NCBI GenBank assembly: GCA_029052085.1
Contig: JAIDJS010000112.1
Location: 1 to 26,485, forward strand
Direction of reading: 5' to 3'
Source of the DNA: Eubacterium sp.
GTDB taxonomy: Bacteria > Bacillota > Clostridia > Oscillospirales > Acutalibacteraceae
DNA length: 26,485 nt
Below are positions 134 to 24,349 of this stretch, one piece after another. The notes beneath the pieces were generated by a model, which saw only the letters and a list, made by a program, of their open reading frames with translations, searched no databases and was not told the DNA's origin. Both the position numbers and the translations under genes were made by a program. How positions within the stretch are numbered: the first letter of the stretch is position 1; every line of letters starts with the position of its first letter.

Positions 134-162
134 TTGACATCTTTCTATAATAGGTATATAAT
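134..162 (+). promoter_or_regulatory. Sigma-A type promoter for the three-gene unit
   Basis: TTGACA at 134-139 and TATAAT at 157-162 are separated by exactly 17 bp, a full match to the housekeeping consensus. Transcription would start near 168-170. An overlapping TATAAT at 146-151 is only 6 bp from the -35 box and is not usable with it. No other convincing promoter was found before the second or third gene, so this one probably drives all three. Confidence 0.85.
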
Positions 163-259: not shown

Positions 260-379
260 ATGAAACGAAAATCGAAGCGAATAATGGGTATGCTGTTGGC
301 ATTGCTTATGTTTGCAACAAGCTTTATCCAGCCGCTTGGTCTGTCCTTCGGACTGTTTGATGTTTATTCGGCAGAAGCC
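260..379 (+). other. Signal peptide of the giant surface protein
   Basis: Residues 1-40 begin MKRKSKR, continue with a hydrophobic core (MGMLLALLMFATSF) and end in an A-E-A motif at 38-40 before glycine. This is a standard Sec signal with predicted cleavage after Ala40. The stretch between core and cleavage site is rather long, so an earlier cut cannot be excluded. There is no YSIRK/G-S motif. Confidence 0.85.
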
Positions 380-3300
380 GGTCCGTCTATGGATTTGTCC
401 ATAACATATCTCAGCGGCGGTAATGTGTCGGAACCCCTTCCGGGTCAGCAGCCGCCTCGTCAGGTAATGATTGGACACGGCGAAACGAACGGTGCAAGAA
501 TTAATATGATAGGCGATTTCCGTTCGGGTGTAGGTGAAGGAAGAAATGCTTACTTTGATTTGAAGCTTCCTTATTTCTACAAGGATTCTACCGGAAATCT
601 TGCTACAACCTATGATTTTGCCGATATCCCTGCAGATCAGAGGGATGATCCGATGTGCCTTGCCGTTAAGGTTGCGGGCGATAATGAGGATTGGGAAGTT
701 GACAAAACTACCGAGTACAGAGGTACGGTTCATTTCCAGAGTGCAAGAACTGTAAGACAGGGTCAGCAGATTGCGTTAACGCTGCTTATTTATTTCAAGG
801 GTGCTGTTCCTGAAAATACAAGTGCTCTTATTTATCTCGGCGGCGGTTATGAAACCTACGCATATCAGGGTGCAACCTCAGACGGATGGTCTGCAACGCC
901 TGAAATGGCAAGCAAAAACGGTATCTATGAATTTATCTGTTCAAACCTTCGTTGGGAAGCAGATATTCAGGCTGTTAATCCAAGAAATGCGTTGTGGGAT
1001 AAATTCAATTACCTTGTTTATAAAATTACAGTAAGAAACACTTCGGAAGACCCTGCCAGCCATATTAAGGCTTTCAGTGCGAATGTTGAAGTTCCTACCG
1101 AGGGTAATGACGGCTATGGTCTTCATATGAAGGAAGCGATGCACTTCCTGTATAACAACGGAAACCCCATAGAGCAAACGAGCTTTGAGCTTGAAGACCG
1201 AGAAGAACTTTATGTCGGTGTTCCCGGACAGGGCGGTGCTCTCATATATGATGTAACGGGAATTCCTCAGGAAGTTCGTGATGAATGGAATCTGATTACA
1301 TTTGCTAATGCTGCAGATCAGAATGGCAATCCGCTTGTTCCTCTTCCGTATACATATACAGCAAGTTCCAGTGTTTATTTCAGTGTGTATGAAAGTATTT
1401 ATGCGCAGGAATATGTTGATAATGATGCAACAGGCGAATCTGTTTCTGAAAAAGAGTTTTATATTGCGCTTCCGATGTCAACGGATATTCCGGACTCACA
1501 GAAGGCAATGATTAACGCTCATGTTTATGATACAATTGTTTTCGGTTCGGACTATACATGGACTAAGCAAAGCGGTCTTGCAACTCACGGCTTTGATGAA
1601 ACCAAAACGGGCTTTACTCATAAGAAATTTGTTCTTGATGAGGATGCTGAAAAATCAGAAAAAACTGCATCAATCGGTGATGAAGTTGAATACTACCTCG
1701 GATATTTTAAAAATACAAGTAACGTTCCTGCCTTTGAGGCAAATGCAGTTGATACTGCACCAAAGGATTTTAATCTTAAACGAATTAATGCGTATATGAA
1801 TTACAGCGATGAGGATGAAGATTACGATCCTCAGCTTGAAGATTGGTTTAAAGAGGAGGGAACGGTTGAATTTGAATTCAGCACAGATGAAGTTGATGAA
1901 GAAGGAAACGCTGTTACCTCTTTCGTTCCGCTCGGCTCAATGGTCTATAATGCTGATAAATCTTCTGATGAAGCAAAAGTGTTTACTCTTGAAGTAGGTA
2001 CTTTGATTGATGATTATATTAAATCTCAGGCTCTTCTTAATAAAACTGTTAAATATACGAATAAATTCCGTGTTAATTTTAAGCACAGAATTGCTCCGAA
2101 TGAAGCCTTTGACGGAAAAATCGGAGTTCAGGGTATTGTTGATAAAGGTATTAAATATGAGAATAAGCTTGTAACAAATTATGAAACATGGCAGTGGATT
2201 AATAAATCTGCGGTTGTTGAGGAAGCAGATTATTTTAAACAGCAGAATTCTACCTCTGCAAGCACGGCAACAATCTTTGCAACGCCTGCAGATCCTAAGC
2301 TGGTAACGGATGTAACCCGTGTTGTAGATGATAAGCTTACAGCTGCGGATACAATGTATATTCCCATTAATGTTGCGGGAACGGGCTTCCGTTATAAGCT
2401 TGGCAACAGCAGCCGTTCCAAGGTTATTCCGGGTATTCTGAAATCAGGTGCAATGCTTGATATTAATCAGAGTAAGCCGCTTGGTTTCGTTACAAATAAA
2501 ATTATCCTTTCAAAGGCATTAATGGATATTGCTGAGGTTGATTCGGTTACTATCTATTGCTTTAGAGGTAAAAATGCTGCTACAAAGGCCGTAGAAATTC
2601 CGTTCAGTAATTTCTCGGTTGATGAAGATGGAAATTATTATATTGAGTCTTCAGCATGGAAGTCTGTCGGCGAATGCTATGAGGGCTATGTAAACTTTAA
2701 ATCATTCGGTGCTAATATAGCGCTTTCCGATGACATATATGTTCAGTTTGCAGGTTATACAAATATTGTAAAACCTGCTGCCGATCCTCTTGTTGTAACG
2801 GGTACATTTACAACGGATTATAATGATCCTGCTCTTGATAAGGCTGTAAAAGACCCTGCAACTATGATTGTAAATACAATCAATCCGATTATTACGGGCT
2901 TTAGCTTTGATGATACAGATACTAAGAAATCAGGTGTGAATACTGCAAGCGGTCAGTCAAAGCAGACTACCGTTAATCATATTGAAATTCCGAATAAGCA
3001 GAAGGATGTCGGTTATGAATGGTCTATCTGCAATAATGCCATTTCTCCTGCAGGTGCTGTTGATATTTCAATTGATTTATCAAGCAGCGTTGGGAATAAA
3101 ACTCCTAACGGTGAAAATCCTACAGTTAAAGGCTTTTTAACCCAGAAAATAACGATTTCCGATTTCAGTAAGGTTGCCGATGTTGATTCAATTAAAATTT
3201 ATGGGTGGAATAAAAATCCCGCAACTGATGAGCCGGATGCAACCATTCCAATCAGTTCTCTTACGGTTACAGATGGTTCGGTTGTTATCGGAGAAGATGT

Positions 3301-6300
3301 ACTTAAAGATATCGGTTATGTAAAGAATATCGTTCTTTCCTGTTCAGAGTTCTATGGCTCCGAAAAAGATGAGCCTGATAAAATGAATATCAGACTTGAT
3401 GGTTATTCGGATTGGTATGGCGATTTGGATGCTGCGTTAACCTTTACTCCGGAAAACGAATCAATGGCAAATCGTATTATCACTCTTACAAACCGTTTAA
3501 GAGTTTTAAAGCCATATGCTGAAATTCACGCATTTATTGATTATTACGATTTAACAGGAACTGCTCTGAATTCAACAGTGAATTCAGATAAAAATGAATA
3601 TACATTAGGTGTACCGTATGACCGTAATTTTTATTACAGTGTTAAGGTAGGCAACCCGTATGTTTCAAGACTTGATGATTTTGAAATCACGCTTGATCTT
3701 CCGTTGTCTGCTGAGGGCAGTGATTATACAGGTTTCCATACAACCGGAATGTTTATGAGCAAAAATCTCATAGATAATTATAGAGTTCTTGAATATTTTA
3801 CGTTCTATGATACCTCTAATCCTGATAAAGCTTACAAATTTGATTTTGATAAGGAAAACGGAACTTTTACCGCTGAAGACGGAACCGTTTACAATGTTGT
3901 TGATGCAGATGGCAATATTTCTATTGATGAAAAAACAATCTTTGCAGATTGGGGAATTGAAAATCTTGGCAAGGTTGTTGTAACAGGTAAGGATTTCAAG
4001 GCAAATGTTGATTGTAACGATGATAACTATTTTACATTTGCAGGATTTTCTGACAGTTACTTTAACAGCTCAGATAGATTAGCTGTTACTGCAATAGATT
4101 ATTTTGACTGTATCCGCACAGAGAATGATACAAAAACTGTGTCAACAGATGGTGCAACAGCTTATATCAGCAAAATGTATTTTGATTCAACAATTGTTGC
4201 TGCTTATAAGGATACTGAGAGTGAAACTGCTGCAAAAACCGGCAATCGTTTTGATGCGGTTTCAACCTCAGATGAGCATATCCGATTAGAAAGATATGAA
4301 AAGAATGATAATTATCATTGGCTTGATAATTCCGAACTTGATATTGGATACAAGGCAATGGGTTCCTTCCTTGTGGATTTCAGACAGTATGTTGATAAGC
4401 CTGGTACAGATTCAAAAAATGTGCCTTTGGTAGGAGGAACGCTTCCTAATTCTCTTACTTATAAAATGTATTCTCAGGAACATCAGGGTAAGGAATATGT
4501 TCACAAGGAATCTTTTAACACTGCAGCGGATGTTGATTTGAATATCACTTTGCCTGATGCAAGTTTTGATGCTTCATATCTTAAAGTTCATCCCAAGGTA
4601 AAGGATTATCTTGAAAGCATTAAAATAACCCGCAAAGATGGTACTGAAACCATTATTGATAAAAGTGACTGGGAAAACAATTCTGTTGAAACTGCTCTTG
4701 ATACAGATGGAAGTGAGCTTGATAAGTTTTTTAGAATTGATTTGCTTCAATCAGCCGAAAGCGAAGAATTGGGTATTTATAAAACTCCAAGTGAATATGC
4801 TGCTGAAAACCCGGTAACTTCTATTGTTATCAGTTTAAATATTAATAGAACTGAGGCAGAAGACGGTAATGCCGCAGATCCTGATTACGGAGCATGGTTT
4901 GATTATTTCAATGAGAATTCAAGATACATGTTTGAAGTAACAGGAAGATTTTATAAATCAGGTTCTGCCACTGCAACTGTGAAAACAGATATGGAAATCG
5001 GTCATATTACCGAAAGACCGTATTCTCAAGCTAAAGACCGAACAACCTCCGGTGTTAAGGATCAGAAATCAAACTGGTCTTTCACAAATCAGTATCAGTG
5101 TTTCTGGTATGTACCGTATCATTGGAATTCAAGAGTAGAGAATTATGATTCGGCTGATCTGTTCTCAACTGCAAAGGTTTATGTTTATAATGAACAGAAT
5201 CAGATTTTAAAGGGTGTTCATAAAACTCCTGCTACAACCCAGGATCTTGATTGTACTTTTGGTACCTATAATGAATTTGCAGTATCCTTCTTCCAGAATA
5301 CTTTCGGAAGTGCTAATGATTATGCAAACGGCGGTGTAAAGAATACAGCAACGGGATATCGCTGGATTGAACAGGATAGGTTTGATTGGAACGGCAAGCA
5401 TGCCTTTACCGACAGACTTGTTCTGGAGGATAAGCTTCCGGTTATCAGACCCGATGCAGAAACGGATTATTACGGCTATCTGACTCAGAAGATTTATGTA
5501 TCTCCTCAGCTTTATCCGTTTATTGATTATATTGAGCTGACAAAGAAGGGAATTGTTCTTAATGAAGACGGAACAACCTCCTCAAAGACTATTGACGATA
5601 ATAAAATCGTTCTTCAAAAAGATGATTTGAAGCTTTATGTAAATGACGGTTCTGATGTCAAGGATCCTACAATTGTTGGTAATGATGAAGGCGTTACTCA
5701 TGAAGGTTTCTATGAAATCAATGTATATTATCACGATGATGAGGATAAAACAGAGGCATCAAACTCCATAATTCTTGGTAAAGACGAGTATCTTGACGGA
5801 TATTCCATTCATTTAAAGAATTTAGCGGGCAACGGAGATTATACAAGGGAACTTGAGGGCTTCGATCTGATGAAACCGTCAGAACATAACAACAATGCAA
5901 CCCCGGATATTTATATCGGCGGTGAGGTATATCGTGTAAGAGAAACAAATCCTCCGGCAGAGGATTATAACAAGATGACCTCAACCTCATATCATTATGA
6001 GTGGAATGCTGCAAAATCGGAATATGCCACAAATCAATATTATACTATGAATGATACCGGTCTTTTGATGGGTTATCGAATTCCGTTCCAGGCAGCTTGG
6101 AAGCTTATTTCAACAAATACCAAAGGTCGTACAATTTATGATTATCATGAAGAAAACGACAATCGTCAGAATGTTGAACCGAATATAGGGAGCTTCGATG
6201 TAAAAATCTGGAATAGAATGGATACGGACCAGCAGATGGGAAGATCCTCTTACATAGATACTGCAACGGTAACCAATACAATGAATGGTATTTATCGTTT

Positions 6301-15300: not shown

Positions 15301-18300
15301 AGCGCCTTTGAATATTCCGCTTTATACAGGTCTGGTTGACGAAGCAGATCCAGATCTTAAAATCAAGGTTCAGAATTTCGACTCTTGGAACAGCTTTGCT
15401 GCTCAGACAGGCGATGAGGTTGTAACGGAATCTGCCTATGCAGGTGTTTATCTCGCAACTCCGTCTGATAAGGGTTATATCGGTCATTATGTATGGCTTG
15501 ATGAAAACTATAATGCAGACTATACCGATGAAGGCGATTATATTAAGCAGGGCGGCAGATGGATTCTTGATAAGCCATCCAAGGATGTTGATTACGACGG
15601 AGAGATAGACGATCCGGGTATAAATAATGTTAAGGTTGAGCTTCTTTCGGAAAATGGATATCCTGTAAACCGCTTTGGTGAGCCTGTTGTTGATATTGAC
15701 GGCAAGTATTATCTTATTGATGAAGCTACCGGCGAGTTTGCTTATGACACAACCGGTAATCCTACCTTTACAACAGCCGGTCCGGTATCTTATACAACCG
15801 AAAAGGATGTTTACGGACATGATGGCTATTTCATCATTTCAAACATTACTCCCGGTAATTATAAGCTGAGATATACCTTCCCTGAAAACGGAAAGTATGA
15901 TGAATACGCTTTAACAACAAGATTTGTAGGTGTTACAAATACACCTGTTGAAGTGTACAGAAAAGGAGAAACACTTCCTGATCTCGGAAATAAGGGTGCA
16001 GGTGATGAGCCAAGCGATTGCGGCAAAGTAAATACTTTCGTTGTTCAGACTAAGGATTCAATCAGAATCGATGCGATAGGAAAAGACACAAGCAAGTATG
16101 AAGAATATGATGCTAAGATGACAACATATGATCTTGGTGTTGCTCCGTCCTTTAAATACGGCGGCTTCGCATTTATGGACAACGGAGAAAGAGTAGACGG
16201 CAAGGGCGGTACGGACGGCTATATTAATGATAACGAAGAGCGTATACCGGGTGTCAGTGTTCAGTTCTATGAAGTTAAAACCGATGAAAACGGCGAAGAA
16301 ACCTTCGGTCCTGCATATAATGCAGACGGTGAAGTAATCAAGGCTCTTATAACTGATGAAAACGGTCACTATGGTACAACTCTTTATCCGTACAGAAGCT
16401 ATATTGCAGTTGCCGATACATCTGAGTTAATCAGGCTTATAGAGCCATCTCCGGTTACAAGAAGTACGTATCCTTTAAGGTATGATAATGATAACGATTT
16501 AACGTATAACAAATCTGCCAAAGCAAATACCACTGCCGTTATGTCTGTTGTTCCGCAGAGAAGCGAATATCCTATGGGCGAATGTGTAAACGGACAGTAT
16601 GGTATTTATGACAGACTGAATCTCGGTTTTGTTGATGTCGGTATCGGTTCAATCGGTAAATATGTATTCCATGATGAAAACTACGATGGAGTACGTAATG
16701 AATCTGTTGATGAAGATGGATTGATTATTACTGAGCCGGGTGTTAACGGCGTTACATTAGTTCTTGAACAGTATTATCTTGACAGTGATAATAACTGGGT
16801 ATATGTTGATGATATAGATTCGCAGGAAAGCTATGGCTCTGCTTATACATTCATTGTTAAGGATACAACCTATATTGTTGACGGAGAAAGATATCTTTGC
16901 GGCTATAAGGTAAAGATGGATATGTCAACCGTTCCCGAGGGCTTTGTTCCTACAAAGTATCATATTAATAATGGAATTTCAGACAGTGATCTGCCTTTAA
17001 CAGGTACAGCGGATTCTGATTATCGTTATCTTAATGATAATCCTATTATTATAGCTGCACTTGCAGATGAGGATACCATTGATGAATACAAAATGGAGGC
17101 CTTCGGAAAAATATATAATGTAACACGTTCTCAAACTGTTCTGGATGTTGATGCTGGCTTAACAATTGATGAAAAAGCCGAAATCAGCGGACTTGTTTGG
17201 AACGATAAGAATTATGATGGATGTCAGAATTCTTATATTGATGAAAACGATGTTGAACTTGATGAAACAGGTGTTTCCGATGTTGAGCTTCAGCTTGTTC
17301 CGTATGTATATACAAATAATAAGTGGACGTTGCTTAATGCAGATGCTTTAACAGACCCTGCCGCTTATGATGCGTATATTCAGAAGGTTACAACAGATGA
17401 AAACGGCAATTATAAGTTTGAAAATGTTGAATCAACAGCTGTTATCAAAAACGGAAACAGCAGTGAGCATTGTATAGTCGGTTACAAGATTAAGGTTAAT
17501 ACCGATATTGAGAATATGAATCTCGGTGCAACCAAGTATCTTGCAAACGGCGGAACAGAGGACAGCCACCTTATCAGATATAACGATGGCGGCAAATATC
17601 TGAATCCTGAAAGTGAATATATTATCACAGCTAAGAAGATTGCAGATTCAGATGTTGATAAAGAATACGGCAAGGATGATGCGTATAATCAGAACACACT
17701 GCTTATTCATAATTCATTAGGCTATTATGATATAAATAAGGTTGTGAATTATGACAGCTTTGATGCAGGTTTAACAGAGTTTGACAGTAATTCCGTTTCA
17801 GGTCGTGTATGGATTGATGAAAACTATAACGGCTTGATGGATGAAGACGAAATCGGAATTGAAAATATTACAATAACATTAAAGCGTTATTATCTTGAAA
17901 AGGGCGGTGCAGGCTCTGAAGATGCTGCTTCATGGATTGAAGATGCTGATTATAACAACGAACTCCATACGGCTGTATCCGATGAAAACGGAGATTATTC
18001 CTTTGATAATCTTGCAACTCATGTTTATAAAAACGGCAAGTATTATCTTGCAGGCTACAAGCCTTTTGTAGCAGCGCATCCTGATAATGCGTTCTATGCT
18101 GCAACACTTTATCGTGTATCGTCTGAAGATGGATTAAGAAATAACGATCTTAAGAATTATTCCTTAACTGCTTCTGCCGAATATCTGATTGTTGCAGATA
18201 TGTGTGATAATAAAGAAGCAGATATTCCGACTGATGCTGTAAATGTAAGCAATGATGCAGTTCGTCTTAATGATTTATACTATGTTGTTAAGTATAAAGA

Positions 18301-21300
18301 TAAATTCTATGATCTTATTACTTCAAAGCCGGTTGGCGAAATTGATGCGGGTTATCATGAATATGACGAAGCAAAGATTTCCGGAAGAGTGTTTGATGAT
18401 ATCAATTATGATGGATATATAAACACGGATGAAGATACCGGAAAAGAAGACGGCTTTACGGAAGAGCTTAAGGAAGCTATACGCAATTCAAGATTTGATG
18501 AAATTATTGTAACGGCAACAGGTTACTATTATGATGGTAATGATAAGAGCTGGAAGCAATATCGTCCTAATGGGGAAGATAGTGAAGCAACATATACAGC
18601 TTCCGTATCCGCAGAAAGCGAAGACGGATTGTTTGAAATATCCGTTCCTACAAAATATACGGTAAACGGCCAGAACTATATGGCAGGCTTCAAGCTGAAA
18701 GTGAATATGATACCTCTTGATTATCATATAACAAAGCATATGGCAAACGGCGAGGATACAACGCAGAATGCGCTTCTTAAAGCAAGCTCATCCGAGTATC
18801 TTTTAACCAAAACAAATCCGAACCGTGAATATTCAGGCGAGTTAAAGGAAGAACTTGACGGTTATGTAATTGTTGCAAATCCGTCAGATAATGCTTCAAG
18901 CCCGAATATTATAAGAGGCTATGATATTGCGGACAGCCGAGATGTTGCGAATTATAATGTCGGCTATACAATAAGACAGAAAGCGGATATTGACGGTATC
19001 GCCTTTATTGATAACAATGATAATGGTATTTATGATTGGAAAAATGAAGATGGTACAACATATGATTCTGGCAAGCCTGATGAACCTTTAGCGGGTATTG
19101 AGGTTGGTATCAAGAGATATATCTGGGATGAAAAGACCGATGTATGGAATCTTGCACCAAATGAGGATGATCCGGATGCTGAGTATTATGCTACAACAGT
19201 AACGGGCGAAGACGGAAGATATACCTTCGCTGAGCTTCTTACTCATGAGCCAAGCGGCAGCTATAAAGATATTCCGCTTCTTTACGGTTATAAAATATGG
19301 CTTCTCAATATGCCGAATGATGATAACGGAGAAGAATTTGCCGCAACGTATTATCAGAAGAATAATGAATTGCTTGACAGTGCTCTGATAGCTTCAACAA
19401 ATCAGGTTATTAAGAGCAAAGAAAATGAATCATATGTAAACGGCGAGCATAAAGACGGATATATCATTATTGCCAATAAGATTGACGGTTCGTCGGCAGC
19501 TGAATTTTCAGATATTGTAGACGGATATGATACAACGCATGGTGTAAACAGAGACGGCTATAACCTTGGCTTTGCCGATTATGAAACCGGAAGCATAGAG
19601 GGTTCTGTTTTCGAGGATATGGACTATAACGGTATTATTGATGAAACGGATTCATCATTTAAGGATATCGAACTCGGAATTAAGAGATACAGCTATGTAA
19701 ACGGAAGCTGGAATTTGGATCAGGCGGATGATGAATATTATTCAACTGTAACAACAAGTGCAAACGGGCATTACAGCTTCAGAAACCTTCCGCTTTATAA
19801 AGAGGTTGATAATGTAAAATACCTTTATGGCTATGAGGTTTATGTTGTTGATGCACCTGAGGGCTTTGCTTTAACACGTTATCAGCAGAATAACGGAGAT
19901 AACGACAGTGCCCTTCTCCTGAACGGACAAATTATCAAATCTGATACTTCTCTTTATGAGATGCTGAAAGGTAAGCTTGTTTTAGGTAATAAAATAACAG
20001 ATCCGGAACAGACGATTGTTGATAAAAAATATATCGTTGACGGCTATGATATTGTTCGCTCTGTTCATCTCAAAGAATATAATGCCGGTTATAAAGCAGA
20101 GGAAAAGGGTACAATTACAGGCACTGTATTTGATGATAAGAATTATGACGGTGCTTTTGATGAAAATGACGGTATTCTGTCCGATGTTGAGGTTTCACTC
20201 AAACGTTTTGTATTCATAGACGGAAAGTGGATTGAGGATGAAGAATTTGAGGGCTATTCAGTATTAACCGATGAAAACGGAAAATACAGCTTTGAAGAGC
20301 TTGATACATATCTCTCAATTGATGGAAAAAATCATCTTTACGGCTATGAGGTATGGGTAACAGAGGCTCCTGATGATTATGCAATAACAAGATATCAGAA
20401 TGACAGCTATGTTCTTCTTAATGGTCAGATTATCAAGCCGGATACCGAGCTTTCTGAAATGCTTGACGGTAAAATGGTAGTTGCCGGTGCAGCAGATGAT
20501 ACCGCAGGCATTGATCCAAGCTATATTGTAGAAGGCTATAATACGGTTCTTTCCGCTGCTGTTGAAGAATATAATGCAGGTTATATTAAGGAGCAGAAAG
20601 GCACGATTACAGGCGTTGTATTTGATGATAAGAATTATGACGGTGTACTTGATGAAGACGAAGAACTGATGTCTGATGTAGGCATAACACTTAAACGCTT
20701 TATCTATAGAAACGGCGAATGGGAAGAGGATACCTTCTTTGAAACCATAACCGATGAAAACGGACATTATAGCTTTGAAGAGCTTGATACTTATGTAAGT
20801 GATGAGGATGCCAAGTATCTTTATGGCTATGAAGTATGGGTAACAGAGGCTCCTGATGGCTATGCAATAACAAGATATCAGAATGACAGTTATGTTCTTC
20901 TCAGCGGTCAGATTATTAAGCCGGATACCGAGCTTCCGGAAATGCTTGACGGTAAGATTGTTGTAGCTGAGCCTGCTGCTGATAAATCGGGTGTGGATGC
21001 AAGCTTCATTATTGAAAATTACAATGTAGTTCTTGCTGAAACTGTTTCAGAATATGATGCCGGTTATAAAGCATTGGAAAAGGGTACAATTACGGGCGTA
21101 GTATTCAGCGATAGTAACTATAACGGTTCAATTGATGAAAATGAAGCTATGCTTTCCGGCGTAGAAGTTACTCTTAAACGCTTTGTTTATGTAAATGATG
21201 AATGGCTTGAGGATGAATTATTTGAAGCTCCAATCGAAGTAACTGATAAAAACGGTAATTATACATTCAATAATCTTGACACTTATGTGGCTGATGAAGA

Positions 21301-24300
21301 TGCTAATTATCTCTATGGTTATGAGGTTTGGGTAACAGATACTCCTGACGGCTATGCAATAACAAGATATCAGAATGACAGTTATGTTCTTCTCAGCGGT
21401 CAGATTATCAAGCCGGATACCGAGCTTCCGGAAATGCTTGATGGTAAGATTGTTGTAGCTGAGCCTGCAGCTGATAAATCGGGTGTGGATGCAAGCTTCA
21501 TTATTGAAAACTATAATGTAGTTCTTGCAGAAACGATTTCCGAATATAATGCAGGCTATAAGGCAATCGAAAAAGGCTCCATTTCGGGCAAGGTATTTGA
21601 CGATAAGAATTATGACGGTAATTTGGATGACGAAGACGAACTTATGTCAGATATAGAGGTTACTCTTAAACGCTTTGTATTGGTAAAAGGCAAGTGGGAA
21701 GAGGATACCGAGTTTGATGTTAAATCCATAACAGATAAAAACGGAGCATACAGCTTTGAAAATCTTGATACTTATGTAAGCGATGAGAATACAAATTATC
21801 TCTATGGCTATGAAGTATGGGTAACAGGGGCTCCGGAACATTATGCAATAACAAGATATCAGAATGACAGCTATGTTCTGCTTAACGGTCAGATTATCAA
21901 GCCGGATACCAAGCTTCCGGAAATGCTTGATGGTAAGATTGTTGTGGCTGAGCCTGCTGCTGATAAATCGGGTGTGGATGCAAGCTTCATTATCGAAAAC
22001 TATAATGTAGTTCTTGCAGAAACGATTTCCGAATACAATGCAGGTTATAAGGCAATCGAAAAAGGCTCCATTTCGGGCAAGGTATTTGACGATAAGAATT
22101 ATGACGGTAATTTGGACGACGAAGACGAACTTATGTCGGATATTGAGGTTACTCTTAAACGCTTTGTATTGGTAAAAGGCAAGTGGGAAGAGGATACTGA
22201 ATTTGATGTTAAATCCGTAACAGATAAAAACGGGGCATACAGCTTTGAAAATCTTGACACCTATGTGGCTGATGAAGAGGCTGATTATCTCTATGGTTAT
22301 GAGGTTTGGGTAACAGGTGCTCCTGATGGTTATGCTGTAACGAAATATGTTAATGACAGCAGTCTTCTTGTAAACGGTCAGATTATCAAAGCCAATACAG
22401 AGTTACCGGAAATGCTTAACGGCAAGATTGTTGTTGCTGAGCCTGCAGCTGATAAATCAGGTGTGGATGCAAGCTTTATTATCTATAATTACAATGTTGT
22501 TCTTGCTGATGATATTTCAGATTACAACGGCGGTTATAAGATTCAGGAATTTGCTTCTATTTCAGGTAATGTATTTGATGATATGAATTATGACGGCATT
22601 ATTGATGAAGAAGATATGATGCTGCCGAATATTCAAATCGGTTTAAAACGCTTTGTTTATGAAAACGGCGAATGGATTTTGGCACAGAGTGAGGATGAAG
22701 AATTCTGCCAGACAGCTGATACAGACGAAAATGGTGGATATCGCTTTACAAATCTTGAAACCTATGTAAACGAAGATGGTGTAAATAAGCTGTATGGATA
22801 TGAGCTTTATGTAATCATAGAAAACAGATTTGCAACGAAATATCAGATGAACGGCGGCGAAAACGATAGTGCTCTTGTTGCTGAAACAAATCAGATTATC
22901 AAAAAGGATGCAAATCTTCCCGAAATGCTTGCAGGAAAGATAGTTCTTGCTAATCCTGTAAGTGATGAGGAAATCAGAAATACACCTTATATAATTGAAA
23001 ATTATGATATTGTTCAAAAATCAGATCTTGATCAGTATAATGCAGGTTTTGTTCCTGTAAGAGAATACAGTATCAGCGGCTATGTTTGGAATGATTCAAA
23101 CAGAGATGGTGTAATCAGCGAGGACGAACAGTTTATGAGCGATGTAAATGTAACTCTTGAACGTTTGTATCTCTTGGATGGAAAATGGTACGAACTTCCT
23201 CAGGAAGAGGATGATAATACAGAAGATGTAACAGATACTGACAAAAATGAAATTGCCGCTCAGAATGATGAAGCGGATGTGGATTCTGATGAAGAAAATC
23301 CGGATATCATTGCTACAGATAAAAACGGATATTATTCCTTCAATAATCTTCCGCTCTATACTGAGGTTGACGGAAACAAAGTAGTTTGCGGTTATAAAGT
23401 TAAGGTTGAAGAATTGCCAAATCTTTATGCAGTAACTGAATATCATAAAAATCAGTTGCCGGAAGCTGAAGAAGCAGAGAATGCTGATGATGCTGAAGAA
23501 AACGGATTGTTTGATAATGATTTGAATGATAAAACAGGCTATCTTGAAAATACCGAGGCACTCATTGTTCTTGCTGATGATGCAGATGAAGCAACGCAGC
23601 CAAGCTATAATATTGATGATTTCAATATTTCCTACGGCGAATCTGTTGAACATTTAGATGCCGGCCTTGTTCCGTTCGGTGCAGGCAGCATCGCAGGTGT
23701 TGTTTTTGAGGATGCAAATGAAAACGGTATTTACGATGACGGAGAGCTGATATTCGAGGGAGAAGCAGTTTATCTGGATTACTTTGTTGCTCCTGAAGCT
23801 GAAGAGGAAGGGGAAACCGATGTTTCCGCTGAGTCTGAAGGCAGCTTTGAAAGCTATCAGAATATGAAAGCTGAAACAGATGGAAACGGTTATTTCATAT
23901 TTGATAATCTTCCTGTTCTGGATGAAAATAATCAGCCGTATCAGTATAAGCTTCGTATGGGTAAGCCTGATGAAAGAAGCTTTACAAAAGCGTTTGCCTT
24001 TGAAATAATGGGCGAGGATAAGCTTAATATTCTTTCTCAGGATAATGAGGATGATGAGAAATTAGGCTCAACTCCTGTTATAACACTTGCTACTCCGAGA
24101 ACAGATAAAAACTTCTATAATCTTAAGTGGCAGCTTGATGGATATAATCATACAAATGCTTATCTTGCCCTTAGCGGTATTGCTGACGGCGAAAAGGTTT
24201 ACACCGGTACGGAAGATATCAATCCTTGGCTTATTGCAGTTCCTGCTTCAGCCTTCGGTTTGCTTATTCTTGTATTTATTGCAGTTAAAAACAGAAAAAG

Positions 24301-24316
24301 AAAGGAAACAGATTAA
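260..24316 (+). CDS. Giant wall-anchored surface protein with DUF11-like modules and SdrD B-like repeat stalk
   Basis: This 8,018-residue secreted protein is probably a cell-surface adhesin or fibre. A basic N-terminus and hydrophobic core form a signal peptide (residues 1-40). Residues 41 to about 5073 hold beta-rich modules: several match the DUF11 pattern of surface proteins, and six diverged copies of an unfamiliar repeat lie between residues 742 and about 2114. Sixteen SdrD B-like domains begin at residue 5074, each opening with a form of I-S-G-x-V-F-D-D-x-N-Y-D-G. The C-terminus has a sorting signal: KVYTGT (7979-7984), a hydrophobic span (about 7991-8009) and a basic tail (KNRKRK). The reading frame is intact for 24 kb, and the start is set by AGAGG 8 nt upstream. 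A solute-binding-fold gene and a class B sortase gene follow, and that sortase is the likely anchoring enzyme. Ligand and exact function are unknown. No enzymatic domain was recognised. Confidence 0.96.
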   Translation: MKRKSKRIMGMLLALLMFATSFIQPLGLSFGLFDVYSAEAGPSMDLSITYLSGGNVSEPLPGQQPPRQVMIGHGETNGARINMIGDFRSGVGEGRNAYFDLKLPYFYKDSTGNLATTYDFADIPADQRDDPMCLAVKVAGDNEDWEVDKTTEYRGTVHFQSARTVRQGQQIALTLLIYFKGAVPENTSALIYLGGGYETYAYQGATSDGWSATPEMASKNGIYEFICSNLRWEADIQAVNPRNALWDKFNYLVYKITVRNTSEDPASHIKAFSANVEVPTEGNDGYGLHMKEAMHFLYNNGNPIEQTSFELEDREELYVGVPGQGGALIYDVTGIPQEVRDEWNLITFANAADQNGNPLVPLPYTYTASSSVYFSVYESIYAQEYVDNDATGESVSEKEFYIALPMSTDIPDSQKAMINAHVYDTIVFGSDYTWTKQSGLATHGFDETKTGFTHKKFVLDEDAEKSEKTASIGDEVEYYLGYFKNTSNVPAFEANAVDTAPKDFNLKRINAYMNYSDEDEDYDPQLEDWFKEEGTVEFEFSTDEVDEEGNAVTSFVPLGSMVYNADKSSDEAKVFTLEVGTLIDDYIKSQALLNKTVKYTNKFRVNFKHRIAPNEAFDGKIGVQGIVDKGIKYENKLVTNYETWQWINKSAVVEEADYFKQQNSTSASTATIFATPADPKLVTDVTRVVDDKLTAADTMYIPINVAGTGFRYKLGNSSRSKVIPGILKSGAMLDINQSKPLGFVTNKIILSKALMDIAEVDSVTIYCFRGKNAATKAVEIPFSNFSVDEDGNYYIESSAWKSVGECYEGYVNFKSFGANIALSDDIYVQFAGYTNIVKPAADPLVVTGTFTTDYNDPALDKAVKDPATMIVNTINPIITGFSFDDTDTKKSGVNTASGQSKQTTVNHIEIPNKQKDVGYEWSICNNAISPAGAVDISIDLSSSVGNKTPNGENPTVKGFLTQKITISDFSKVADVDSIKIYGWNKNPATDEPDATIPISSLTVTDGSVVIGEDVLKDIGYVKNIVLSCSEFYGSEKDEPDKMNIRLDGYSDWYGDLDAALTFTPENESMANRIITLTNRLRVLKPYAEIHAFIDYYDLTGTALNSTVNSDKNEYTLGVPYDRNFYYSVKVGNPYVSRLDDFEITLDLPLSAEGSDYTGFHTTGMFMSKNLIDNYRVLEYFTFYDTSNPDKAYKFDFDKENGTFTAEDGTVYNVVDADGNISIDEKTIFADWGIENLGKVVVTGKDFKANVDCNDDNYFTFAGFSDSYFNSSDRLAVTAIDYFDCIRTENDTKTVSTDGATAYISKMYFDSTIVAAYKDTESETAAKTGNRFDAVSTSDEHIRLERYEKNDNYHWLDNSELDIGYKAMGSFLVDFRQYVDKPGTDSKNVPLVGGTLPNSLTYKMYSQEHQGKEYVHKESFNTAADVDLNITLPDASFDASYLKVHPKVKDYLESIKITRKDGTETIIDKSDWENNSVETALDTDGSELDKFFRIDLLQSAESEELGIYKTPSEYAAENPVTSIVISLNINRTEAEDGNAADPDYGAWFDYFNENSRYMFEVTGRFYKSGSATATVKTDMEIGHITERPYSQAKDRTTSGVKDQKSNWSFTNQYQCFWYVPYHWNSRVENYDSADLFSTAKVYVYNEQNQILKGVHKTPATTQDLDCTFGTYNEFAVSFFQNTFGSANDYANGGVKNTATGYRWIEQDRFDWNGKHAFTDRLVLEDKLPVIRPDAETDYYGYLTQKIYVSPQLYPFIDYIELTKKGIVLNEDGTTSSKTIDDNKIVLQKDDLKLYVNDGSDVKDPTIVGNDEGVTHEGFYEINVYYHDDEDKTEASNSIILGKDEYLDGYSIHLKNLAGNGDYTRELEGFDLMKPSEHNNNATPDIYIGGEVYRVRETNPPAEDYNKMTSTSYHYEWNAAKSEYATNQYYTMNDTGLLMGYRIPFQAAWKLISTNTKGRTIYDYHEENDNRQNVEPNIGSFDVKIWNRMDTDQQMGRSSYIDTATVTNTMNGIYRLKHIYIPEAFIDGDWFNVEKLTIKYGSGSSHTATFNLQQLKDCGYLSYDEENQQYVFDFNPFIKDHIDDFAKFNPNNYETGDVYVSEWIHSFVIKLSAVDSKKSNGAGVLKGGEFLNSARQKQTANRGGIENSALPTFSYDGVYADRTVEDINANAWTKKSRPTVWHGPDGNHEYTSSTDYYNYADTVFTSSEKNAEAYRNLNGSNQIDSNGYGDRRDYYNIRNLVANLNVNAQRTTTMDDGSKTFAYDIDNSDGTNTYLNVDKSHLLPDDYIEYQLTVAASADSMIPVYRPDIRFVAPTGQRVVGWYIIENTSDIPDDDITGKLSTSSTGSNTAIAASPIDRDAYYSLVAGADGNEETCYRRLDISAGDLSKEESLNQVAKGKKIVVSVITQLTDELSSFEGKTINPGIYAAAHPQHTYSQYRIRNINNAPGAYYYSTHHYTDSTEGAEYHRYNTSSYYGELNNELTYMSDIRTSTTFYDSRNLKLDVNYTDPEFHYDGMPMKFTMTGGTGSNNATAANAENDTLHSLERAVYTVSFLQTANGKLFKGFDLTEKQVFPYPDSVTQHKGENAKVEYCYFVDSAGDVIGTDVGIYETDAPDTQIWISEDKVIAADSLTEEQIADGCRLLKDAVRIRWTYFDVPAGTAANPIVFATPANPFELIGVGRYRDIRTDAQKKTTAADDYFTFRIDGHVELKHKHDESVENTLVGSTDSSAMQFTEPVSLYGTGVITKSIVRERPILNLHTQIFKNEAEAEAVYNANAAQVKGYRPGDTVWFKDTVQNLQKGPDAPQGVLLNPVFFDKIPEYISASGLESAVQTGNTDNIKVVWYNRDGTVKTDIPEFTVTKTQFEDVPDYLGDTVTTKSDTDGTNFNTHRAFADISLGENGNTVSTPITFNLYQIKFKDGSRLEIGEHIEVYYSATVRMENLPLSYTQRGTGDNAKTFVDYYPKYGEYYSVPSGAHTDGWGTVYEWYTRAYPYIGVMTGKNLYGTPTLTTDYCGSLTQFMNANSMMDMNYLYHDLGVSGLRNKNIDKYEYLKDSNVYMPGSAGDEINDGAYISGRGYPHENYGGSNGYLKDFDVNIDKNQQITTYVPTLTQNKLTELPVSEKYVNPTSKRDRDWFNRMLVYRNRSTNWQEEHEDAVIWAESRMHLQTAWLAAGSQIISAEDKSESIEYLPTNYNGYKLDPRFNIIHNTYASGSHSVWGYRTGQNENTRLFNDDSVPTMEYDQYFTSRVSAYNYGDWSLTSGLEFIYVMPKGIEPQFNEDGSVDTANIKAQIMSGGTSNNPIYTEIDPDLIQVQVLQKPGNANGYKTPNIMQDPVLSSETMNKTGHSYVDENPYYSADDETSWVFRITVKQSLNKWFNRGTSYGYMMYVDIPSHVYETPESEYWYDEVMVRPLDTTHQDSLYYQIYDTTSLWGHNDLTKLALASQVSTQYGGMDYLWNSYYHYYHHGGRGSDVGPNGNMYYVSASPNMPYINGMNISNREVSAQGVLDDSGKENFESGVRNTYASTGTRAHMRKPLIRTWTTVGEDNIIGTNPHGYYLDSQGDTSTLNIHVENKYWLNTMAVDQHYYGWVSTGNNSGYYTESQEYNKIRHTYSTDGGNKGTLYYPVVTNILPAGIVPKDINGRLFTEDNDENAKMQLDWSLYNYSYSGNTSTAYEKFDQEKELYETKVEYILLDCEDGSTEGRYKITFKQKSDDLTTANEDKLKISSEDARVFQFKIYTLAAPSGMTKDGKLNNDLLDVFQRNHTFVSSQLENFRFLIDSEVQNNQAENPYYVGSRFVESYRNWYAPPNRPNDATISDVRKDSALITNRAGGNSGNLPDCPVLTQNLGTNAAIDGTDEGGNKRYFEEDGKITLRDNFDKSKITELQMEDYTDLRYGLTLQSESVDFDAGNDSTNIGVHTTNRIRVRWPDIESNAYLTDKPSENIENLGVRSPQGTEGKYVYYPDASDKSQALQYGDTLYYNVKVSNGATEDDHFHHGNVLHAKIKVVLALPDIVRFVGNYDEDGNYIDDAMYLIHQKEDGTVNRYTFAELEDAGYEIKFEEKIDENGRQLLILEVLTPGDFTDDETPNYLDYVAGKHLPGWFSYNDKMVVGFKTTIHNNMEDDSDILSGEDFWDNEYKADSYATLEDIDGEYLKQQYPGEGFEKLSDRDESKIGYERESAENEETGIDIDYDDDPNERFSHDVSAAITLLKPHAVVRLDTSEQRIPIINPDLTGGSVRVVEDPAVKGATKMTLYIDRAENDGAKVPEFILDYRVPFRGTYESTRDEAAASEDSVKGNVYAVGTGVWEIPETAGDEEYREALKNHLSVKVYGLYSDSDDSSEHGKLPFEDNSVYENVNDYGKGKWVDLTAVHNSLSGNAGQSGVPIDENTILDITSISNAFIGNSTLVNRLYQIRFVISSDDPAYLVPQNFSLAIDADPDTDGVQNMDDIDPEHENLNPLPESVVSNVKFLESGELDLENSKVGNAAFVIAAMSHQNATRRHVNHFVNAWARYDDEQYGAIANRSRAGYFITREMPVLEVDLKAKYFKRAKNDETGKYEYSWSDDVMISDSSKMLKYTASIKNLSDDGIADTNLGDVEQDAATDVQISTVLPFIQNIDKSVSDDDPNEYKFYKQVSYNSEEWQNTISPDNVSSAQLYAEDSKWCWHVENEEGEWVSVPEITSVTLQMYDKITDLTNTLQRRVLTFTSAGILRPGQRLVVDFMVPVTTDNGVGSSNLLSCKAYGFKPGAYIPYIPSTDNGTETYAFEIDKRDVNNNNMMNSENTITKNLGGISFSSTRVFNRTKVSFSEYGTGLNVSGNDSLRPSVVPEGTKYSFISSLVNPDTSPDDGGNRGYDQPIIYDVLPYEDDISLIKIDDQGNVAQRGTNWRGYIRLDSIYVKSDKAGVGTEELKDGVNANIWIGPFNYDARGNIIDIPMENLPNVDLTSDKEFFKSIRGEGLSQVNEKKKYFVRLRDILALKNKDSERYDEIERHAQAIYVEPLEDYYLGGSTKLSLSYDMKAPLNIPLYTGLVDEADPDLKIKVQNFDSWNSFAAQTGDEVVTESAYAGVYLATPSDKGYIGHYVWLDENYNADYTDEGDYIKQGGRWILDKPSKDVDYDGEIDDPGINNVKVELLSENGYPVNRFGEPVVDIDGKYYLIDEATGEFAYDTTGNPTFTTAGPVSYTTEKDVYGHDGYFIISNITPGNYKLRYTFPENGKYDEYALTTRFVGVTNTPVEVYRKGETLPDLGNKGAGDEPSDCGKVNTFVVQTKDSIRIDAIGKDTSKYEEYDAKMTTYDLGVAPSFKYGGFAFMDNGERVDGKGGTDGYINDNEERIPGVSVQFYEVKTDENGEETFGPAYNADGEVIKALITDENGHYGTTLYPYRSYIAVADTSELIRLIEPSPVTRSTYPLRYDNDNDLTYNKSAKANTTAVMSVVPQRSEYPMGECVNGQYGIYDRLNLGFVDVGIGSIGKYVFHDENYDGVRNESVDEDGLIITEPGVNGVTLVLEQYYLDSDNNWVYVDDIDSQESYGSAYTFIVKDTTYIVDGERYLCGYKVKMDMSTVPEGFVPTKYHINNGISDSDLPLTGTADSDYRYLNDNPIIIAALADEDTIDEYKMEAFGKIYNVTRSQTVLDVDAGLTIDEKAEISGLVWNDKNYDGCQNSYIDENDVELDETGVSDVELQLVPYVYTNNKWTLLNADALTDPAAYDAYIQKVTTDENGNYKFENVESTAVIKNGNSSEHCIVGYKIKVNTDIENMNLGATKYLANGGTEDSHLIRYNDGGKYLNPESEYIITAKKIADSDVDKEYGKDDAYNQNTLLIHNSLGYYDINKVVNYDSFDAGLTEFDSNSVSGRVWIDENYNGLMDEDEIGIENITITLKRYYLEKGGAGSEDAASWIEDADYNNELHTAVSDENGDYSFDNLATHVYKNGKYYLAGYKPFVAAHPDNAFYAATLYRVSSEDGLRNNDLKNYSLTASAEYLIVADMCDNKEADIPTDAVNVSNDAVRLNDLYYVVKYKDKFYDLITSKPVGEIDAGYHEYDEAKISGRVFDDINYDGYINTDEDTGKEDGFTEELKEAIRNSRFDEIIVTATGYYYDGNDKSWKQYRPNGEDSEATYTASVSAESEDGLFEISVPTKYTVNGQNYMAGFKLKVNMIPLDYHITKHMANGEDTTQNALLKASSSEYLLTKTNPNREYSGELKEELDGYVIVANPSDNASSPNIIRGYDIADSRDVANYNVGYTIRQKADIDGIAFIDNNDNGIYDWKNEDGTTYDSGKPDEPLAGIEVGIKRYIWDEKTDVWNLAPNEDDPDAEYYATTVTGEDGRYTFAELLTHEPSGSYKDIPLLYGYKIWLLNMPNDDNGEEFAATYYQKNNELLDSALIASTNQVIKSKENESYVNGEHKDGYIIIANKIDGSSAAEFSDIVDGYDTTHGVNRDGYNLGFADYETGSIEGSVFEDMDYNGIIDETDSSFKDIELGIKRYSYVNGSWNLDQADDEYYSTVTTSANGHYSFRNLPLYKEVDNVKYLYGYEVYVVDAPEGFALTRYQQNNGDNDSALLLNGQIIKSDTSLYEMLKGKLVLGNKITDPEQTIVDKKYIVDGYDIVRSVHLKEYNAGYKAEEKGTITGTVFDDKNYDGAFDENDGILSDVEVSLKRFVFIDGKWIEDEEFEGYSVLTDENGKYSFEELDTYLSIDGKNHLYGYEVWVTEAPDDYAITRYQNDSYVLLNGQIIKPDTELSEMLDGKMVVAGAADDTAGIDPSYIVEGYNTVLSAAVEEYNAGYIKEQKGTITGVVFDDKNYDGVLDEDEELMSDVGITLKRFIYRNGEWEEDTFFETITDENGHYSFEELDTYVSDEDAKYLYGYEVWVTEAPDGYAITRYQNDSYVLLSGQIIKPDTELPEMLDGKIVVAEPAADKSGVDASFIIENYNVVLAETVSEYDAGYKALEKGTITGVVFSDSNYNGSIDENEAMLSGVEVTLKRFVYVNDEWLEDELFEAPIEVTDKNGNYTFNNLDTYVADEDANYLYGYEVWVTDTPDGYAITRYQNDSYVLLSGQIIKPDTELPEMLDGKIVVAEPAADKSGVDASFIIENYNVVLAETISEYNAGYKAIEKGSISGKVFDDKNYDGNLDDEDELMSDIEVTLKRFVLVKGKWEEDTEFDVKSITDKNGAYSFENLDTYVSDENTNYLYGYEVWVTGAPEHYAITRYQNDSYVLLNGQIIKPDTKLPEMLDGKIVVAEPAADKSGVDASFIIENYNVVLAETISEYNAGYKAIEKGSISGKVFDDKNYDGNLDDEDELMSDIEVTLKRFVLVKGKWEEDTEFDVKSVTDKNGAYSFENLDTYVADEEADYLYGYEVWVTGAPDGYAVTKYVNDSSLLVNGQIIKANTELPEMLNGKIVVAEPAADKSGVDASFIIYNYNVVLADDISDYNGGYKIQEFASISGNVFDDMNYDGIIDEEDMMLPNIQIGLKRFVYENGEWILAQSEDEEFCQTADTDENGGYRFTNLETYVNEDGVNKLYGYELYVIIENRFATKYQMNGGENDSALVAETNQIIKKDANLPEMLAGKIVLANPVSDEEIRNTPYIIENYDIVQKSDLDQYNAGFVPVREYSISGYVWNDSNRDGVISEDEQFMSDVNVTLERLYLLDGKWYELPQEEDDNTEDVTDTDKNEIAAQNDEADVDSDEENPDIIATDKNGYYSFNNLPLYTEVDGNKVVCGYKVKVEELPNLYAVTEYHKNQLPEAEEAENADDAEENGLFDNDLNDKTGYLENTEALIVLADDADEATQPSYNIDDFNISYGESVEHLDAGLVPFGAGSIAGVVFEDANENGIYDDGELIFEGEAVYLDYFVAPEAEEEGETDVSAESEGSFESYQNMKAETDGNGYFIFDNLPVLDENNQPYQYKLRMGKPDERSFTKAFAFEIMGEDKLNILSQDNEDDEKLGSTPVITLATPRTDKNFYNLKWQLDGYNHTNAYLALSGIADGEKVYTGTEDINPWLIAVPASAFGLLILVFIAVKNRKRKETD
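2483..6600 (+). repeat. Diverged six-copy repeat family (module A), not recognised
   Basis: Copies begin at 2483, 3131, 3731, 4568, 5474 and 6287 (residues 742, 958, 1158, 1437, 1739 and 2010). The first three are clearest. They open with GFVTNKIILS, GFLTQKITIS or GFHTTGMFMS, contain a strand such as VDSVTIYCF or VDSIKIYGW, then an SxxxVxxDG-like turn, and close with FAGYT, LDGYS or FAGFS. Copy five (GYLTQKIYVSP) keeps the opening; copies four and six are weak. Each copy is preceded by a DUF11-like half, for example VGYEWSICNNA, so the true unit is a composite of about 200 residues or more. I do not know a named family for the second half. Confidence 0.5.
9120..11060 (+). other. Aromatic- and histidine-rich part of the giant protein
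   Basis: Residues of about 2955-3600 are unusually rich in Tyr, Trp, His, Asn and Gly compared with the acidic stalk. The extreme is YYHYYHHGG at residues 3457-3465 (10628-10654). Other aromatic clusters include WGTVYEWYTRAYPY. Such composition is common in exposed carbohydrate- or surface-contacting loops, so this may be the contact zone. That is inference only; no lectin or carbohydrate-binding family is recognised. Confidence 0.45.
13553..13609 (+). other. Thrombospondin type 3-like calcium loop
   Basis: Residues 4432-4448 read DADPDTDGVQNMDDIDP. The spacing of Asp and Asn matches the D-x-D-x-D-G-x-x-N-x-x-D-x-x-P pattern of calcium-binding thrombospondin type 3-like loops found in many bacterial surface proteins. 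Only one copy was seen here, near the end of the N-terminal region. Confidence 0.5.
21410..21780 (+). repeat. Near-identical direct repeat, copy 1 (end of domain 11 into domain 12)
   Basis: This block of about 370 bp recurs 489 bp downstream at 21899-22269. By eye I count about 15 substitutions, most of them synonymous (for example GAT/GAC, GTA/GTG, ACC/ACT). It crosses a domain border, so the duplicated unit is not in phase with the protein domain. Confidence 0.85.
21899..22269 (+). repeat. Near-identical direct repeat, copy 2 (end of domain 12 into domain 13)
   Basis: This is the second copy of the block at 21410-21780. Similarity ends sharply after LDTYV, where copy 1 continues SDENTN and this copy continues ADEEAD. 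The latter resembles domain 11 (ADEDAN), a sign of mosaic exchange among neighbouring repeats. Confidence 0.85.
24194..24313 (+). other. C-terminal sorting signal with atypical KVYTGT motif
   Basis: Residues 7979-8018 contain KVYTGT, a short acidic spacer, a hydrophobic span (LIAVPASAFGLLILVFIAV) and the tail KNRKRKETD. The three-part layout is that of a sortase substrate, with VYTG in the place of the LPXTG pentapeptide. It is neither LPXTG nor the NPQTN of the iron-linked SrtB. It most resembles the xVPTG signals of streptococcal pilus proteins, which are processed by class B-type sortases. The class B sortase two genes downstream is the natural partner. Confidence 0.75.
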
Positions 24317-24339
24317 GGGAGGTTTTACTCCTCCCTTAA
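24313..24339 (+). promoter_or_regulatory. Perfect 10-bp hairpin overlapping the giant gene's stop codon
   Basis: TTAAGGGAGG (24313-24322) and CCTCCCTTAA (24330-24339) are exact inverted repeats around a 7-nt loop. The TAA stop (24314-24316) lies inside the left arm, and a strong Shine-Dalgarno-like GGGAGG is locked in it. No U-tract follows, so it is not a standard intrinsic terminator. It may stabilise or divide the mRNA, or couple translation of the next gene to ribosomes finishing the giant gene. Confidence 0.65.
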
Positions 24340-24349
24340 GGTAATGGCT

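Follow-up and report, generated by a model that had tools for sequence, protein, structure and literature searches.

Here, we analysed a giant bacterial surface protein of 8,018 residues and the two genes that follow it in the window, i.e., the whole 26,485-base stretch of DNA under study, which is an entire contig (G000:C16) of a draft genome (1.92 Mb, 367 contigs, 91% complete). Our results point, with a probability of roughly 0.6, to a wall-anchored protein of the fibrillar-adhesin type, in which a conserved, ligand-facing head would be carried on a tunable stalk, attached by a sortase encoded in the same operon and aided at the membrane by a partner protein. The gene opens with ATG, closes with TAA and has no internal stop in its single frame of 8,018 codons; 259 bases separate the contig start from the ATG, and the third gene of the operon stops 27 bases short of the contig end (Table 1). 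A single intact gene of this size had been claimed in the preliminary description, and the open frame, the homologues and the purifying selection described below bear this out. One exported, anchored polypeptide is, likewise, still the best reading, given that the tested part of the frame is under strong purifying selection, that putative export and sorting signals lie at its ends and that a class B-like sortase is encoded two genes downstream.

Table 1. Features of the window, with positions counted from its first base
Feature	Position	Strand	Basis
Promoter-like TTGACA-17-TATAAT	134..162	+	Spotted by eye in the sequence
Giant surface protein, 8,018 aa	260..24316	+	ORF listing, translation, homologue search, alignment, dN/dS
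Putative signal peptide, residues 1-39 (approximate)	260..376	+	Judged by eye
Head, residues 40-5061, collinear in 17 relatives	377..15442	+	Alignment
Tip domain, residues about 450-675; pilin-like fold; K456, D498, N635 (candidate isopeptide)	1607..2284	+	Structure model, alignment
Head repeats, three to four and diverged, residues about 700-1280; span variable among relatives	2357..4099	+	Profile self-comparison
Well-conserved head segment, residues 2745-3790, all-beta model	8492..11629	+	Alignment, structure model
Stalk of 16 SdrD_B-like domains, 14 of them firm and 2 weak; Ca-type loop complete in 13	15443..24112	+	Pfam, HMM, hhalign, motif search
Tandem array within the stalk, period 489, 5.2 copies	20074..22614	+	Repeat detection
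Putative sorting signal with KVYTG (24194-24208), then a hydrophobic stretch and a basic tail	24194..24313	+	Sequence, alignment, motif search
Hairpin whose 10-bp stem overlaps the stop codon of the giant	24313..24339	+	Folding of the giant/partner gap
Partner: family-5 solute-binding-like protein of 461 aa, hydrophobic anchor at the N-terminus	24344..25729	+	Pfam, profile search, alignment
Class B-like sortase, 235 aa	25751..26458	+	Pfam, NCBIfam, comparison with solved relatives

The gene order of the window recurs in distant genomes. Among 14 loci examined 3′ of the giant (G000, G472-G477, G479, G481, G397, G490, G493, G494 and G110), which were called Bacillota by record annotation, kinship or rpoB likeness, a binding-protein gene directly follows the giant in 12, the exceptions being G477 and G110; in G472, G476 and G479, only the C-terminal part of the giant is seen beside the partner. 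A sortase gene, confirmed by Pfam in each case, comes next in 8 of these 12 operons (G000, G472, G473, G474, G475, G490, G493 and G494), and the other four have no adjacent sortase. The sequences of G478 and G480 end inside the giant, and G110, which has giants elsewhere, carries a partner-like gene on a giant-free contig (G110:C124; L075 2862-4481). No partner/sortase pair was recognised by eye in the ORF lists of five Actinomycetota-type loci (L021, L022, L024, L029 and G488). Because the partner is absent beside the giants of G477 and G110 and no pair was recognised in these five loci, it is, judging from gene order, not required by every giant. A search with the window's partner (P0042) found no match in genomes G483-G488, G491 and G492, the same search having passed over divergent partners, including the one adjacent to the giant of G493, and having matched only other places in G490 and G494. 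Among family genomes, a partner search that was likewise insensitive to divergent partners matched 3 of 150 (G000, G110 and G085), the G085 match being an ordinary lipobox protein. In the open-access literature, with most subscription papers outside this search, we found no published account of a giant/binding-protein/sortase operon; the operon and its partner protein thus appear to be undescribed.

The junction between the giant and the partner has a feature of its own. In 9 of 12 giant/partner gaps, a stem starts at the giant's stop or within about 16 bases of it, with stems that mostly differ in sequence among relatives; no stem was found in the gaps of G490 and G493, and that of G494 lies further on. 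In the six gaps tested, the hairpin z ranges from -2.3 to -4.9, and the window's stem has no T run. Such a hairpin may dampen expression of the partner and sortase genes, or it may protect the long transcript.

The partner and the giant appear to travel or diverge together. In nine genomes, the distances of the two proteins correlate at r 0.946, and at 0.937 with rpoB taken out, whereas giant and rpoB distances correlate at only 0.385 in the same nine genomes and 0.51 in twelve; in ten genomes, with no control for rpoB, r is 0.92, and 0 of 5000 permutations are as high, all these being coefficients from few genomes, obtained from distances rather than a tested tree and boosted by a close pair of genomes and a single distant one. 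G110 has no rpoB match and is therefore excluded from the rpoB-controlled correlation, and G490, G493 and G494 are in neither correlation. Among G000, G472, G474 and G475, rpoB distances are 0.02-0.04 and those of the giants (segment 2745-3790) 0.10-0.40, whereas the distance of G476 (Candidatus Stoquefichus) to these four is 0.42-0.43 for rpoB and just 0.43-0.45 for the giant. Because giant and partner co-diverge with each other but not with rpoB, the pair probably moves horizontally; fast divergence may be an alternative to such exchange.

What the partner does for the giant is a matter of proposal. The window's protein matches PF00496 at E 5.9e-18 (65.6 bits, with a cut-off of 32.4), this family is matched by 13 of 13 aligned partners at E <= 0.001, and the partner profile matches oligopeptide- and nickel-binding proteins over most of their length; used as a single-sequence query, the window's binding protein found no solved relative. 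These affinities would suit a nutrient-capture station, in which peptides or glycopeptides caught by the head would be passed by the partner, as a receptor, to a transporter encoded elsewhere. We regard such a station as unlikely, however: in the ORF lists of the neighbours, inspected by eye, no transporter or importer gene was recognised beside the partner, a regex search found no lipobox in 12 of 13 partners (L058 has a lipobox-like motif), and the partner diverges in step with the giant. More in keeping with these observations, the partner, rather than supply a transporter, would most likely work on the giant at the membrane, either by gripping the chain as it emerges or by offering the chain's tail to the sortase.

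The sortase is assigned to class B with some reserve. NCBIfam gives class B as the best match for 8 of 8 operon sortases, with the window's enzyme scoring 143.9 bits against TIGR03064, under the curated cut-off of 153.75 that a single operon sortase passes (L049, 154.6). The window's enzyme has the Pfam sortase domain, and its closest solved relatives are SrtB enzymes. The same genome contains a second class B-like sortase, away from the giant (L002 1279-2040, contig G000:C74).

The sorting signal announced in the preliminary description is present at the C-terminus, but it is KVYTG and not a canonical LPXTG. KVYTG, at residue 7979, is followed by a hydrophobic stretch and KNRKRKETD, and the sole LPxTG match in the giant, at residue 5578, lies inside the stalk. 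At the same place, relatives have motifs that include VDTG, IQTG, VQTG, VNTG, AKTGD, VKTGD, QPKTSD, LPKTGD and LPRTGD, and P0040 has no clear sorting motif. All 11 giants in alignment A1 share the motif threonine (T7982). NPW was also considered as the sorting motif and rejected, relatives aligning on the preceding xTG instead. According to the accessible text of one source, a class B sortase of Streptococcus pyogenes accepts (E/Q/V)(V/P)PTG (PMC3019223), which KVYTG resembles; by this analogy, KVYTG would be a non-canonical signal of the class B sortase type, as distinct from a proven class B motif. Sortase anchoring of the giant to the wall is, on these grounds, likely. If, instead, the giant were held in the membrane by its C-terminal segment and the sortase served other substrates, the non-canonical motif and the 4 of 12 operons that have no adjacent sortase would be readily accommodated, but not the LPKTGD, QPKTSD and similar motifs found at the same place in relatives or the invariant threonine, so that membrane retention seems distinctly improbable.

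At the other end, the giant starts, as previously described, with what by eye looks like a Sec signal peptide, i.e., a basic run, a hydrophobic core and AEA↓G. The head of about 5,000 residues that had been delineated earlier is aligned end to end and in the same order in 17 representative relatives, of which the 14 more distant ones show 18-68% identity per 250-residue block; the best-conserved stretches are residues about 2,751-3,750 and 5,001-5,250. A Pfam search, which had been proposed as a check, recognised SdrD_B in the stalk, but the head is nearly invisible to it: at E 0.1, no family was found in residues 1-4080 of the giant, nor was any found in the 15 members of the 2745-3790 alignment, and of the 10 members of the 40-700 alignment, two contain DUF7619. 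Matches to AMP_N, DUF6795 and other families were discarded as sums of weak repeats in which no single stretch passes. NCBIfam recognised a DUF11-type repeat in the head, best at residues 467-504. Segment-wise structure prediction had been proposed along with the domain search: the two modelled head segments, 1,707 of about 5,020 residues, are predicted to be all-beta and resemble pilin domains, so that the beta-sandwich content formerly attributed to nearly all of the visible protein holds for the modelled part of the head. Structural matches to the 2745-3790 model fall mainly on model residues 2-787 and barely cover the last quarter, and no modelled head fold is called new.

In the model of the tip domain, a Lys-Asp-Asn triad, conserved in 18 of 18 giants, is a candidate intramolecular isopeptide of the CnaA-like kind, and the fold class of this pilin-like model is listed as isopeptide-forming in the accessible part of PMC12617251. 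Exceptions in alignment A4 are the L076 row, with H and E in the Lys and Asp columns, and another row that is gapped at Asn; the segment that begins at 2745 has His-Thr-Gln at the position of the triad's Lys. Near the tip lies a second repeat region (residues about 700-1280), whose matched span in relatives varies from 580 to 989 residues. Profile self-comparison revealed no convincing repeats from about 1280 to the stalk, the weaker pairs outside 700-1280 and the stalk being taken as chance; a recent duplication of the whole head was dismissed, clear repetition being limited to residues about 700-1280.

Adhesion by the giant is plausible. Pfam recognised no catalytic or lectin family in the giant or in the members of the head alignments, and no ligand-binding domain was identified in the head. 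Together with the many beta-sandwich modules, this would fit a protein of a structural coat or biofilm matrix that is devoid of a specific ligand and may be processed once exported, but for such a material it is hard to see why the head, and not the stalk, should be conserved in order and length, and we consider this explanation, too, rather doubtful.

The stalk is built from SdrD_B-like domains. An HMM made from 13 of the giant's own repeats finds 14 stalk domains at iE <= 1.9e-13, a weak one at 5318 (iE 1.2e-4) and one at 5070 that is not significant (iE 0.69), although hhalign matches the latter at 96% over 41 columns; the earlier count of sixteen is reached only if both weak domains are included, and Pfam SdrD_B (E 2.2e-52) counts 10 stretches. 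The loop D-x-[ND]-x-[DN]-G-x-x-[DEN] is complete, and at its usual place, in thirteen domains, which suggests metal binding. The stalk sequence found no match among solved structures. In 18 giants, 6 to 14 domains were counted at iE below 1e-5, with 25 in G397; the HMM used here derives from repeats of the window's giant and gives too low a count for distant stalks (1 in G490). The first domain starts at 5,248-5,643 in 17 of 18 giants. P0010 and P0016 are 99.7% identical where aligned, and 706 residues of their 719-residue difference fall in two stalk gaps. Compared with the window's giant, P0002 and P0003 lack 327 and 163 residues, respectively, in single stalk gaps, near which the repeat unit is 161-164 residues. 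In these alignments, stalk length is seen to change by repeat units, with the head constant in order and nearly in length; some of the differences may be repeats collapsed in assembly.

For the window itself, stalk misassembly is unlikely because the sole exact repeat of at least 60 bp in the stalk is 71 bp long and neighbouring repeats are 38-86% identical in DNA. A homologue search with residues 1-2500 retrieved 40 proteins of 6,741-7,990 aa from other assemblies, with 26-90% identity over 71-100% of the 2,500-residue query, although about two dozen of them (7,190-7,223 aa) look like entries of one lineage; the closest three, at 87-90% identity, are 7,678, 7,830 and 7,990 residues long. A further homologue, of 9,750 aa, sits in CP102272.1, a chromosome labelled complete. 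Against a UBA3323 relative (L011), dN/dS is 0.053-0.12 at dS 0.51-0.83 in nine blocks spanning codons 1,732-6,600, with residues 1-1,731 and 6,601-8,018 outside the comparison; because of these low values, we infer strong purifying selection on the tested head and stalk in the giant's frame. An artefact of assembly or decay, for which one could invoke the 367 contigs of the draft and the 393 N in the sequence retrieved for the stalk and its surroundings in the nearest named relative (L061, genome G472), has a negligible probability and is, in practice, ruled out by the 40 homologues, the collinearity of the whole head, the divergence of the stalk repeats, the dN/dS values and the homologue in the chromosome labelled complete.

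Giants of this family are rare and widely scattered. With the window's genome included, the tip query found them in 2 of 200 genomes of the family and 2 of 295 of the order; profile A2, run against 398 genomes of the phylum, found one in that of the window alone. The congeners G021 and G149 (99% complete) have no match to giant or partner. A scan of a species-genome collection with two short patterns, and hence a lower bound, yielded at least 25 loci, of which 13 are Bacillota-type, 10 Adlercreutzia-type, from records that we take to be Eggerthellaceae, and 2 from Leucobacter. Among named species, relatives occur in [Clostridium] asparagiforme DSM 15981 and Massiliimalia timonensis. Adlercreutzia-type genomes G485, G486, G487, G488, G491 and G492 have two to five frames with the A2 domain each. 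The longest open frame with this domain has 24,922 codons, and that of A. caecimuris encodes 24,910 aa ending in LPQTGD and a membrane tail. This wider family, like the operon and the combination of a fixed head with a variable stalk, had been overlooked in the preliminary description.

Taking these observations together, we propose that the giant chain would exit by Sec, that its beta-sandwich domains would fold outside the cell and that the operon's sortase would cut KVYT↓G and join the giant to peptidoglycan. The stalk, probably stiffened by metal loops, would keep the head at a distance of tens of nanometres, or about 65-80 nm if each stalk domain adds 4-5 nm, far from the wall, as envisaged before; there, the head might bind a host glycan, a mucus component or another cell. 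Only tentatively, as a possibility to which we give well under even odds, do we further suggest that the solute-binding-like protein, tethered to the membrane, is dedicated to the export or sorting of giant chains, its peptide-binding fold having been recruited to seize a chain of thousands of residues as it emerges or to pass the tail on to a class B sortase, and that the three genes form a kit, exchanged horizontally, for fibres that lengthen and shorten as stalk repeats are gained and lost.

Giant bacterial surface proteins have mostly been listed as curiosities. In the present case, the head is conserved and the stalk varies, the likely anchoring enzyme is encoded nearby, and an enigmatic partner has evolved along with the giant across distant lineages. 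Three questions thus become testable, namely, how very long proteins are secreted and anchored, what such bacteria expose tens of nanometres from their wall and how fibre length is set.

Several known systems share parts of this design. Staphylococcal Sdr/MSCRAMM proteins have SdrD_B-type stalk domains with Ca-type loops, as does the giant, which, unlike them, has no SD repeats (no run of three SD) and no terminal LPXTG, is far larger and has a different head. Calcium has a role in Sdr proteins. In AbpA-SrtB (PMC4974636) and the S. pyogenes pilus sortase Spy0129 (PMC3019223), a class B sortase lies beside its substrate and the motif is non-canonical, as here; unlike in the window, the substrates are small proteins or pilins, and the accessible text of these sources mentions no solute-binding-like partner. 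Giant1-5 of Apilactobacillus kunkeei, surface proteins of 3,000-8,000 aa, are similar in size to the window's giant; they are reported to have beta-solenoid tips, and sortase goes unmentioned in the accessible part of that account (PMC12863079), whereas the models of the window's giant are all-beta and pilin-like.

The closest precedents are the giants of Adlercreutzia, likewise putative surface proteins with a C-terminal sortase motif. As far as the accessible texts go, sortase-signal proteins encoded by genes of 74,766 and 74,247 nt were reported in 2013 (PMC3778203), and a 2021 account added a subspecies whose homologues are shorter (PMC8142583); the giants of 2013 are about three times longer than that of the window and have LPXTG-type ends. 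Records of A. caecimuris and other Adlercreutzia, which were used for the comparison in place of AEQU_0093 and AEQU_1251 themselves, share the window's A2 (stalk-start) domain, with head pieces matching in part; unlike in the window, no adjacent binding protein and sortase were recognised in the Adlercreutzia loci examined. Because Adlercreutzia giants with sortase signals had already been reported, the giant itself is not a new kind of protein; it is novel in its KVYTG-type signal, its operon and a partner that diverges along with it.
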